A stretch of DNA of 36,035 bases from Flavobacteriales bacterium (lineage in GTDB: Bacteria > Bacteroidota > Bacteroidia > DT-38), in NCBI GenBank assembly GCA_013214205.1, contig JABSPQ010000331.1, positions 1 through 36,035 on the forward strand, given 5' to 3'. The position numbers and the translations under genes are program-made. The first letter of the stretch is position 1; each line of letters begins with the position of its first letter. Positions 25,154 through 27,985 of this stretch are shown piece after piece. The notes beneath the pieces are model-generated. The model had not been told where the DNA came from and ran no database searches. It worked only from the letters and a program-made list of their open reading frames with translations.

Positions 25154-26533
25154 TTATGTAACGGTCTCTTTTCCCTGTTGATAATTACTGACAAAGTACT
25201 CGATGTACTCTGGTATTTTGGTGCCGAGGTAATAGGGCAGATTCATTAATAAATAAGGAGTTCCGCCTGGTGTTGTGTGTTCTTCAATCGCAAATTCTCC
25301 TGCGTACATACGCACTGCGTATGGATGGTTGCACCGTTCTACATATTGATGCAAGGATTTCAACTTACCTATTTTGCCTGATTTAATTTCAATAGGAATA
25401 ATTAGGGAGCCATGTTGAACCACTAAATCTACTTCTGATGATGCTTGTGATTTTTCTCTCACCCAAAAGTTTGGTTTATCATTTCGTTCAACAGATAATG
25501 AGATTAATTCTTGGGTGATGATATGTGGAATAAGAGCGCCTTTATAGGATGAGCTTAAATCGTCGAATCCCAGTAGATCTGCTTGTATGTTTAAAGTATG
25601 ATTGATGATTCCTGTATCTAAAAATTGCAGTCTAGGAGATTTTCTAATATTGGGCCTGATAGGAAATTCTGTGGAACTAGTAGGGTAAATTAAACGGATA
25701 ACTTTCGCCATATCTAAGTCGGTCATGGCCTGAGACACTTCCCGTGACTTAAAACTCGAATTTCCGAAATTTTGAAATTTAATTCGTTTATCTAATTCGC
25801 CTGGCCCTGTTTCCATAATATGGCGAAGTACTTTTTTCTCAGTTTCGTTACGAGCATACTTTTCTACATCTTCTTTATAAGCAGTCCATATTCCGCCATA
25901 TATTGTTATCAGATCAGAAAGGCTATTTGTTTTCCTGTATTGAGCCAATACTTCTGGCATTCCTCCAACTATTACATACTTGTTAAAGTACCTAAGAAGG
26001 GTTGAGTGAGCTGCTTTTCTAACAGGAATTATGTGCAATTCTTCCAGTAAAATTTCGTGTTCCATTACATTTATAAACTCTTCGAAGTTTAAGGGGTGCA
26101 TGTAGAGGTATTGAATTCTTCCTACTGGGAATCCTTTTACCTGCGACAAGGCAAATTCTAAGAGAGAACCTGCTGTAATAACATGTAATTCTGGAAGGTC
26201 TTCATAAAAATAACGCAATAGATGAATTGCCTTTGTAGATTCTTGTATTTCGTCGATGAATAGAAGGGTTGATTCCATTTCGTTCGAAGGAATTCCATTT
26301 GCGAGTAATATGTGGTCAATTATCGTTTTAACATCATCATATTTTTCAAAGTATTCTAAATCTCTTTTTCGTTCTAGGTTAAGATGAATGAAGTTTTTAT
26401 ATGATTTTGAAAAAGTAATTACAACGGTTGTTTTGCCAACTTGTCTGGCTCCCCTTATAATTAAGGGTTTTCTAGTGTCAGATTGCTTCCACTCTTCTAG
26501 TTTTATCGCTATTTTTCTTGTGAATTCTTTCAT
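25154..26533 (-). CDS. AAA ATPase with DUF4143 domain
   Basis: The 459-residue protein starts MKEFTRKIAIKLEEW, then LIIRGARQVGKTT (Walker A, about 24-36), STLLFIDEIQES (Walker B, about 90) and HVITAGSLLEFAL (sensor region). The C-terminal half is DUF4143: GGMPEVLAQY, REVSQAMTDLDMAKVIRLIY, LQFLDTGIINHTL, and SSEVDLVV then IPIEIKSGK, which has the shape of a PD-(D/E)xK nuclease-like core. The family is abundant in Bacteroidota and archaea and has no established function; suggestions include defence or mobile-element roles. Its start faces a 33-base tandem repeat array. Confidence 0.88.
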   Translation of the reverse strand: MKEFTRKIAIKLEEWKQSDTRKPLIIRGARQVGKTTVVITFSKSYKNFIHLNLERKRDLEYFEKYDDVKTIIDHILLANGIPSNEMESTLLFIDEIQESTKAIHLLRYFYEDLPELHVITAGSLLEFALSQVKGFPVGRIQYLYMHPLNFEEFINVMEHEILLEELHIIPVRKAAHSTLLRYFNKYVIVGGMPEVLAQYRKTNSLSDLITIYGGIWTAYKEDVEKYARNETEKKVLRHIMETGPGELDKRIKFQNFGNSSFKSREVSQAMTDLDMAKVIRLIYPTSSTEFPIRPNIRKSPRLQFLDTGIINHTLNIQADLLGFDDLSSSYKGALIPHIITQELISLSVERNDKPNFWVREKSQASSEVDLVVQHGSLIIPIEIKSGKIGKLKSLHQYVERCNHPYAVRMYAGEFAIEEHTTPGGTPYLLMNLPYYLGTKIPEYIEYFVSNYQQGKETVT

Positions 26534-26554
26534 TATGAATCATTCTTCTTAATT

Positions 26555-26562
26555 CAAATGTA
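26555..26562 (-). promoter_or_regulatory. Possible -7 promoter element for the DUF4143 ATPase gene
   Basis: On the minus strand it reads TACATTTG, matching TAnnTTTG, 22 bases before the ATPase ATG. It overlaps the first unit of the tandem repeat array. No TTTG sits at the ideal -33 spacing. Confidence 0.3.
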
Positions 26563-26756
26563 ACAAAACAAACCCAGTTATTTGTATTGCGTGTCACAAA
26601 GCAAGGGTGATTATATTTAGCTTGCGTCACAGAACAAGGGTAAATATTTACATTATTTGTATCAAAACAAAGGTGATATATTGTATTGTTTGTAACAAAA
26701 CAAACCTAAATATATCTGTTGTGTGTCATAAAACAAGGGTGATTTATAATTTTATA
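26559..26756. repeat. Six imperfect tandem repeats with an exact 33-base period
   Basis: Units begin at 26559, 26592, 26625, 26658, 26691 and 26724. Each holds a core of the form T-[AC]-A/T-[CT]-A-[AG]-A-[AG]-C-A-A-[AG] followed by GGG, AGG, ACC or CCC, for example TCACAAAGCAAGGG, TAACAAAACAAACC and TCATAAAACAAGGG. The remaining bases of each unit are A/T-rich and diverge more. Several cores are near-palindromes such as TTTGTAACAAA. A seventh, decayed unit may start at 26757. In one plus-strand frame each unit reads as an 11-residue motif C-x-K-T-x-V-I, open to a stop at 26789, but without an ATG. The array fills the space upstream of the ATPase gene. Confidence 0.85.
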
Positions 26757-26789
26757 TCTAGAAAGGCCATTATCTCAATAAAGAAATAG

Positions 26790-26932
26790 GAGTTTTTGTT
26801 AAAGGAAAATTTACGTTATTAGGCATCAGGTGATTGGGCTAATATTTTTGAAGGTATTTCCTATATATAAGAAATGTATCCCATGTACCAAAAAATAATT
26901 CAACAGCTGTAATGCTTGTATAGCGCGATTCT
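26790..26932. other. Intergenic stretch with no recognised feature
   Basis: These 143 bases lie between the repeat array and the promoter of the lysine operon. I see no open reading frame of note, no tRNA-like fold and no copy of the 33-base unit. It may hold regulator sites that cannot be recognised without comparison to relatives. Confidence 0.4.
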
Positions 26933-26964
26933 TTTGGATTTGGCAGAACAATATTCTATTTTTG
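26933..26964 (+). promoter_or_regulatory. Bacteroidota consensus promoter of the lysine-degradation operon
   Basis: TTTG at 26933-26936 and TATTTTTG at 26957-26964 are spaced by 20 bases, a full match to the TTTG-N17-23-TAnnTTTG pattern of the Bacteroidota primary sigma factor. Transcription would start near 26971, leaving an untranslated leader of about 190 bases before kce. This length fits the attenuator described below. Confidence 0.6.
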
Positions 26965-27094
26965 GCATACAATTCTTCTGAAATAGATAGAAAATAGCGA
27001 ATGCGATTATCGAGAAAAATAAAAGTTGAGGTGCATGATACAGCCGATTTAAATATCGGAAAGGTTGAAGCATTGCGTTGGATTTAAATAAATT

Positions 27095-27112
27095 ATGAAG
27101 AGTAAAAGATGA
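27095..27112 (+). other. Possible leader peptide MKSKR in the attenuator
   Basis: ATG AAG AGT AAA AGA TGA encodes five residues, two of them lysine, and its stop codon overlaps the first base of the terminator's 5' arm. A ribosome terminating here would cover that arm. There is no Shine-Dalgarno site, only A/T-rich sequence, which is common in this phylum. Frames this short occur by chance. Confidence 0.2.
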
Positions 27113-27139
27113 ACCTTTCCGGATACGGGAGGGTTTTTT
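27112..27139 (+). terminator. Intrinsic terminator 24 bases before kce
   Basis: A 10-base-pair stem (27112-27121 with 27126-27135, two G-T wobbles) closes a GATA loop. The T-run (27134-27139) begins with the last two bases of the 3' arm. The nearest upstream gene is divergent, so there is no upstream plus-strand gene to terminate. This points to a regulatory, conditional terminator. Confidence 0.8.
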
Positions 27140-27163
27140 AGTTTAAAGAAATAATGAATTGAC

Positions 27164-27985
27164 ATGAAAAAAATGGTAATAACATGTGCGATAACTGGTG
27201 CTGAGACCACCAGAGAGCACAATCCAAACTTGCCTATTTCTCCACAGGAAATAGCAGATGGAACTTATGACGCGTACAAAGCAGGTGCTTCCATTGTACA
27301 CATTCATGTTAGAAATCCTGATGGAACGCCTACACAAGACGTCGAAATTTTTAGAGAGACAATTAAGTTAATCAGAGAAAAATGCGACATCGTTATTGAA
27401 ACCACTACTGGTGGCGCGGTTGGTATGAGCCCTGAGGAAAGATTACAGCCCATACAGCTCTCACCAGATATGGCTTCACTAGATTGTGGAACGGTAAATT
27501 TTGGCGATGAATACATTGAGAATACATGGCCTATGATGCAACAATTTGCTGAGGAGATGAAAAAACATGGTGTTAAGCCAACCTTAGAATGTTTCGATCT
27601 AGGGCATGTTTATCTTGCTAATAAACTAATTGAAACTGGATTACTCGAAGCTCCTTACCATTTCGGGATGGTGTTAAACGTTCCAGGGGCTTTGCCATAC
27701 ACACAAGATAATTTAAAATACATGCTCAAAGTAATGCCAGAAAACAGCGAATGGACTGTTGTAGGCATTGGTGGTAAAGGTGCTATGATGGGTGTTGCAG
27801 ACGCAATTGAACTAGGCGGATTTATGCGTCAGGGTTTTGAAGACAACATTTATTTTGAGAAAGGAGTTTTGGCAGATAGCAACGCACAATTAATAGAAAG
27901 AGCCGCAAACATGGCAAAAGACGCAGGTTACGAAATAGCGACACCTGCTGATGTTAGAGAAATATTCAATTTAAAAAGCAAATAA
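27164..27985 (+). CDS. kce: 3-keto-5-aminohexanoate cleavage enzyme
   Basis: This BKACE (DUF849)-family enzyme converts (S)-5-amino-3-oxohexanoate plus acetyl-CoA to acetoacetate and (S)-3-aminobutyryl-CoA. The 273 residues show the zinc ligands His46 and His48 in VHIHVRNPDG. Glu14 in TGAETTRE and the R-x3-E-D set at Arg222, Glu226 and Asp227 (MRQGFEDN) stand where characterised Kce has its third zinc ligand and catalytic residues. MVITCAITGAETTREHNP is the usual start for the group acting on lysine-derived substrates. It is the first gene of a seven-gene operon preceded by the attenuator, and kdd starts one base after its stop. Confidence 0.93.
   Translation: MKKMVITCAITGAETTREHNPNLPISPQEIADGTYDAYKAGASIVHIHVRNPDGTPTQDVEIFRETIKLIREKCDIVIETTTGGAVGMSPEERLQPIQLSPDMASLDCGTVNFGDEYIENTWPMMQQFAEEMKKHGVKPTLECFDLGHVYLANKLIETGLLEAPYHFGMVLNVPGALPYTQDNLKYMLKVMPENSEWTVVGIGGKGAMMGVADAIELGGFMRQGFEDNIYFEKGVLADSNAQLIERAANMAKDAGYEIATPADVREIFNLKSK

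Follow-up and report, generated by a model that had tools for sequence, protein, structure and literature searches.

The window analysed here, a stretch of 36,035 nucleotides from a Flavobacteriales bacterium (contig JABSPQ010000331.1), carries six direct repeats of 33 bp immediately upstream of a gene encoding an AAA_14-DUF4143 ATPase, which, judged by its profile match, is a member of the phage-defence candidate family PDC-S01. The array belongs to the DUF4143 (PDC-S01) gene family and is not a local curiosity. With a probability of roughly 60%, the repeats are dedicated binding sites for PDC-S01, the product of the adjoining gene, and most likely form an autoregulatory operator, a reading that is based on sequence comparisons and structure models.

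The six units follow each other at exact 33-bp steps, fill positions 26559 to 26756 on the minus strand, which is the orientation of the DUF4143 gene, and end 25 bp upstream of its ATG (26533, minus strand). The original prediction of six 33-base repeats directly upstream of the ATPase gene thus holds, and the unit starts are located two bases from the cores noted at that time. Over the array, the self-match at a lag of 33 is 0.60, and across all lags between 10 and 60, 5000 dinucleotide-preserving resamplings yielded no value above 0.483. Each unit consists of a conserved core of about 17 to 21 bp and a looser AT-rich spacer, since the mean pairwise identity between units is 0.71 in columns 1-21 versus 0.48 in columns 22-33. 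Tandem Repeats Finder (TRF) by itself calls only 2.6 copies because the spacers diverge. On the gene strand, the cores read like CCCTTGTTTTGTGACA, and the core consensus of about 17 bp in the clade of the window is ACCCTNACTTTGTNACA. The features are as follows.

26559..26756, minus strand: array of six 33-bp units (repeat analysis)
26559..26591, minus strand: unit 1, gene-proximal, gene-strand core GGGTTTGTTTTGTTACA (repeat analysis)
26592..26624, minus strand: unit 2, core CCCTTGCTTTGTGACA (repeat analysis)
26625..26657, minus strand: unit 3, core CCCTTGTTCTGTGACG (repeat analysis)
26658..26690, minus strand: unit 4, core CCTTTGTTTTGATACA (repeat analysis)
26691..26723, minus strand: unit 5, core GGTTTGTTTTGTTACA (repeat analysis)
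26724..26756, minus strand: unit 6, distal, core CCCTTGTTTTATGACA (repeat analysis)
26555..26562, minus strand: candidate Bacteroidota -7 promoter box TACATTTG, overlapping the end of the unit 1 core (sequence)
25154..26533, minus strand: AAA_14-DUF4143 ATPase and predicted PD-(D/E)XK nuclease, PADLOC PDC-S01 (Pfam, PADLOC, structure model)
25155..26946, no strand: segment with gene and array, absent from the only congener (alignment with G001)

Relatives of the ATPase were collected by protein similarity only, from draft genomes of bacteria, and their start codons were set by script. The script found 103 genes, and 102 distinct long-form genes with at least 150 bp of upstream sequence, including the window gene, were evaluated. 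The best self-match lag was sought over 20 to 60 in the 300 bp upstream, where the 32-34 range would be hit by chance at a rate of three in 41 lags, and repeats with a score of at least 14 were regarded as strong. A best lag of 32-34 bp was found upstream of 85 of the 102 DUF4143 genes (33 in 74, 32 in 11), compared with eight of 98 downstream stretches, which is the chance level, and 13 of 146 control genes of the same loci. Strong repeats were present in 72 of 102 upstream regions, in one of 98 downstream stretches and in one of 146 control genes. Fisher tests of the upstream enrichment gave p values of about 1e-34 and 3e-29, which are inflated by relatedness among the loci, though these represent many genera and phyla. 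Copies thus accompany DUF4143 genes, as the original prediction had proposed to check. According to phylum groups assigned from record titles, the best lag is 32-34 in 41 of 42 members from Bacteroidota, in all four from Spirochaetota, in both from Cloacimonadota and in six of nine from Acidobacteriota/Aminicenantes; it also occurs in SAR324 and others, in one of two members from Verrucomicrobia/Lentisphaerae, and in neither the single Omnitrophota (0/1) nor the single WOR-3 member (0/1). Arrays also accompany the gene on a gut phage contig and on a Chlamydiota plasmid. The estimated number of cores in the 72 arrays is two (20 arrays), three (36), four (9), five (4) or six (3), counts in which the 300-bp window shortens long arrays such as the 15-copy array of locus L068. 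In 11 arrays of the motif type found in the window, neighbouring units match at 0.86 over nine core positions, namely those not fixed by the search pattern, versus 0.51 over 16 spacer positions (averages over the 11 arrays).

A second, short-form group of DUF4143 proteins (GPRQSGKTT, about 385 amino acids) is encoded by genes without a 33-bp array. Instead, a strong palindrome (score of at least 12) is located within 120 bp upstream of 18 of 29 of these genes, compared with three of 29 downstream and none of 29 further upstream. The short-form palindromes (L159-L188) are about 40 bp long, near-perfect and end just before the start codon, and the genes of L166 and L184 have 22-bp tandem repeats in place of the palindrome. 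Given the short-form palindromes and the long-form arrays, each branch of the DUF4143 family seems to maintain a site of its own in front of the gene.

The sequence of the units is linked to the protein. When the unit profiles of the 72 arrays were compared over all rotations, unit similarity rose with protein identity (r 0.53, a value that no permutation out of 2000 reached, compared with 0.22 for the reverse-complement control). Nine pairs of paralogues from the same genome had unlike units. The unit code therefore follows the ATPase and not the host. The source genome (G000) holds five DUF4143 genes, three of which were inspected, and each of these has its own dissimilar 33-bp array. The window array itself is single-copy in this 5.1-Mb genome, and its unit is not scattered through the genome; random scattering without gene association was what the original prediction had named as a refutation. 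The permease and BKACE genes that flank this stretch in the window are neighbours in the only congener, G001, with 45 bp between them; homology with G001 stops at window position 25154 and restarts at 26947, so that gene and array appear as one 1.8-kb segment gained or lost as a unit. G001 keeps the flanking genes without the array, which does not refute the tie between array and gene, because it also lacks the DUF4143 gene, both being located in the missing segment.

The product of the adjacent gene is a protein of 459 amino acids with the Pfam domains AAA_14 and DUF4143, and the PADLOC profile PDLC04788 (PDC-S01) matches residues 4-448 with an E-value of 8e-184. A Walker A motif (GARQVGKT), a Walker B motif (FIDEIQ) and a C-terminal D...ExK motif are conserved in family alignments, and D369, E382 and K384 are invariant in alignments of 14 and 73 rows. 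No Protein Data Bank chain matches the ATPase in a sequence search. The AlphaFold2 model (pLDDT 94.7, pTM 0.92) aligns over residues 1-315 with the archaeal AAA+ ATPases 2qen (Z 16.7, root-mean-square deviation (rmsd) 4.8, 274 aligned) and 2fna (Z 15.7, rmsd 3.7, 264 aligned), and the top Foldseek matches are Orc1/Cdc6 initiators on DNA (E 8e-7). From the model, the alignment and the structure matches, residues of about 230 to 316 are predicted to form a winged helix. The C-terminal 144 residues, folded alone with middling confidence (pLDDT 77), best match McrC (E 1.2e-4), and Can2 is among the weaker matches (E 4e-3), as expected for the predicted PD-(D/E)XK fold. PDC-S01 is described as the fourth most common prokaryotic defence candidate, with 9986 archaeal and 29494 bacterial copies, and most PDCs are described as still awaiting experimental validation in the available part of the same account (PMC12988326).

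Outside the gene family, the motif is rare in Bacteroidia genomes and recurs in phages. A strict pair, defined as CCCTNANTTTGTNACA, N12-20 and CCCTNANTTTGTNACA again, was sought in 395 Bacteroidia genomes and gave eight matches in five of them, seven of which (four genomes) are located directly upstream of DUF4143 genes. The window array is absent from these strict matches; its best cores have G for A. The eighth match is a two-copy 33-bp element (L258, 9595-9643) between genes that, from a reading of the open reading frames, encode a Fic and a type I restriction-like (HsdR-like) protein, without a DUF4143 gene, and it is possibly a remnant or a shared operator. A search of 2.9 million viral contigs, with a gap of 10 to 40 allowed, yielded 44 matching contigs, all of which have exactly two copies separated by 17 bases, corresponding to the 33-bp step. 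Because these contigs fall into five nucleotide clusters (32, 5, 4, 2 and 1 contigs), the number of independent viral occurrences is about five and not 44. With a control pattern of equal information, complemented but not reversed, none of the viral contigs matched, and the examined DNA of the 44 contigs contained no DUF4143 match. Phage genes are present, namely for a portal, a primase/helicase and an exonuclease in L228 and for a DNA polymerase exonuclease subunit in L215. In one phage group (L189, L190, L194, L196), the pair fills almost the whole gap from the stop of a portal-sized open reading frame (no PHROG match) to the ATG of the next gene. For the weaker clade motif, a pair of ATTTGNAACAAA, there were 17 viral matches with scattered gaps, only one of them at the 33-bp step; a GGGTT variant, a convergent pair and the short-form palindrome gave no match each in the viral contigs, and the named phage records (INPHARED) held no convincing pair.

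Phage relatives were further collected via the neighbouring exonuclease (80 loci, 73 usable), with two mismatches allowed per core. Of the 73, 31 have the pair, 11 have just one copy and 31 lack the motif, and in locus L314 the pair is in the opposite orientation. After the exonuclease gene, loci L259-L338 contain a mosaic intergenic region of interchangeable short modules that differ between close relatives, which include the 33-bp pair, TACCC-GGTA palindromes, CGATTAGGTATA and TGTATA...TATACA. The phage pairs resemble decoys, targets or borrowed operators. Their patchy pattern of gain and loss is consistent with an arms race but does not choose among titration, targeting and borrowed repression. 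A module pattern shared by L281 and L327 had no match in the 395 host genomes, and the remaining modules matched DUF4143 upstream regions no better than chance-like; a whole decoy cassette in the phages is therefore unproven.

We infer binding by PDC-S01, autorepression and an effect of the phage pairs in the following way. Binding by the ATPase itself is suggested by the position of the array, its conserved cores, the helical-scale spacing, the protein-linked specificity and the predicted winged helix. PDC-S01 would bind each core of about 17 bp through its winged helix, and the 33-bp step would set successive protomers or rings near the same face of the DNA, thereby allowing cooperative binding. 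On the chromosome, three or more sites would cover the promoter and the leader of its own gene, and transcription would be repressed when they are occupied, keeping the level of PDC-S01 low. The minimal two-site version in a replicating phage might draw the protein off the host array as a decoy; alternatively, PDC-S01 may encounter phage DNA at this pair of sites, or the phage may borrow the repression by PDC-S01. The Bacteroidota -7 box has the consensus TAnnTTTG, and the position of the array fits repeats that overlap their own promoter, with the candidate box overlapping unit 1. Boxes of this kind are enriched between -70 and -15, where 25 of the 72 arrayed upstream regions have one (mean of 3.6 and maximum of 10 in 200 shuffles), although no more than 12 of these 25 boxes lie within or across the array. 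Several observations weigh against binding and autorepression by PDC-S01. A repressor seldom needs 3-15 sites, and the similarity of the winged helix is no better a predictor of unit similarity than that of other domains (partial r 0.09, reached in 33 of 500 permutations), with no domain standing out. Seventeen of the 102 genes lack the 32-34 lag, and only six of ten Desulfobacterota-like members show it, with strong repeats in only two. The array is weak on one Parabacteroides plasmid and missing in three other plasmid-borne distant relatives, and among the further phage modules only that of L281 and L327 looks like another 33-bp pair. Taken a step further, PDC-S01 proteins might be self-addressed, sequence-specific immune ATPase-nucleases with a 33-bp code of their own in each lineage, which is present in at least three copies over the promoter, and phages would carry minimal two-copy decoys or recognition sites, so that host immune genes and intergenic phage cassettes would have a common operator language and exchange it; this extension is tentative, and the odds are rather against it.

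An unlikely but not negligible alternative is that the array is an immune-recognition element, with PDC-S01 parked on it or kept inactive by it and attacking or sensing DNA with the two-site phage form. The (nearly) invariant Walker motifs and D..ExK triad, the C-terminal model closest to the McrC nuclease, the phage pairs at exactly 33 bp in five unrelated groups, and the gain, loss, halving and single inversion of the pair among related phages would all suit this role; however, phages should quickly lose a dispensable intergenic target, and the array stands where an operator would. It is less probable again that the cores are bound by another, broadly conserved regulator that controls PDC-S01 genes as well as some phage genes. 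The phage pairs are intergenic, and those of one group immediately precede a gene start, but the units vary with the ATPase across phyla, paralogues of the same genome have different units, and strict pairs are almost confined to the DUF4143 gene.

Among the functions that the original prediction had left side by side, the operator array is favoured, as one tied to the DUF4143 gene. An iteron-like replication or mobility site appears improbable. It would suit the Orc1/Cdc6 initiators on origin DNA as best Foldseek matches and the gain or loss of gene and array as a single segment, but arrays downstream are at chance level only, the array is unique in the source genome and the eight window proteins scanned include no recognisable replicon protein. 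A decaying, functionless minisatellite or a coding repeat is very improbable. Despite the tandem arrangement, a minisatellite with even decay along the unit is disfavoured, as identity is higher in the core than in the spacer with the same trend in 11 arrays, and both the position and a period of 32-33 are kept in many phyla. The 11-residue reading frame pointed out earlier is indeed open on the plus strand, but coding is disfavoured, as no start codon precedes the array and the best lag of 32 in 11 of 102 genes breaks an 11-residue repeat. A CRISPR array, which would combine near-identical repeats, unrelated spacers and cas genes, was rejected: the units adjoin each other at 33 bp, their cores are degenerate and their AT-rich spacers resemble one another, and the eight window proteins scanned include no cas family. 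The predicted RNA folding of either strand of the array is no better than that of shuffled sequences (z 0.36 and -0.88), and an Rfam scan gave a single weak match, located outside the array.

On the other flank of the array, the first gene, BKACE, starts at 27164, which is 407 bp away. A lysine promoter about 180 bases from the array, as originally proposed, could not be confirmed, and an operator of the lysine operon was rejected, as G001 keeps the BKACE leader without the array. This leader (27000-27140) holds an intrinsic terminator (27111-27136), with which a stretch located upstream, GGAAAGGTT, could pair; G001 keeps both, with GTGCATGATA, and Rfam gives only a weak ncr1575 match. From its sequence, the leader is possibly an attenuator or riboswitch for lysine fermentation.

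In the open-access literature of PubMed Central, as represented by titles, abstracts and parts of texts, no description of the array was found. The available part of the account of PADLOC PDC-S01, likewise an ATPase fused to PD-(D/E)XK and matched by the window gene by profile, gives no mechanism and describes no cis-element, the terms 'tandem repeat' and 'promoter' occurring 0 times in this text (PMC12988326). The lineage-specific upstream DNA code and the matching two-site phage elements would represent the first concrete handle known on PDC-S01: they supply DNA for binding tests, a promoter whose activity can be assayed, and phages that can be compared according to the presence or absence of the pair. 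What is so far a candidate list could in this way become a testable sensing or counter-sensing system. McrBC resembles PDC-S01 by fold match only, both having an AAA+ motor together with a nuclease domain of the PD-(D/E)XK type; it consists of two proteins and recognises modified DNA, and it is not known to be accompanied by an array. Plasmid iterons are phased direct repeats located just upstream of the rep gene for a winged-helix DNA-binding protein, and the window array likewise precedes a gene for a predicted winged-helix protein; in contrast to iterons, it belongs to a single chromosomal gene whose predicted product is an AAA+ nuclease. The nearest tested precedent, by analogy, is RptR; in the available part of its description, it binds three direct repeats in the promoter of a defence island and thereby represses the island, two of the repeats being sufficient (PMC12255303). 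As in the window, the defence genes of this island (type I restriction and DarTG2) are located behind direct repeats that overlap a promoter, and RptR acts there as an autorepressor; however, it is a separate regulator of 79 residues and its repeats are 9 bp long (PMC12255303). At the window locus, in contrast, no small regulator is seen, the cores measure about 17 bp and keep a constant step of 33 bp, and the defence ATPase itself is the sole candidate for binding them.
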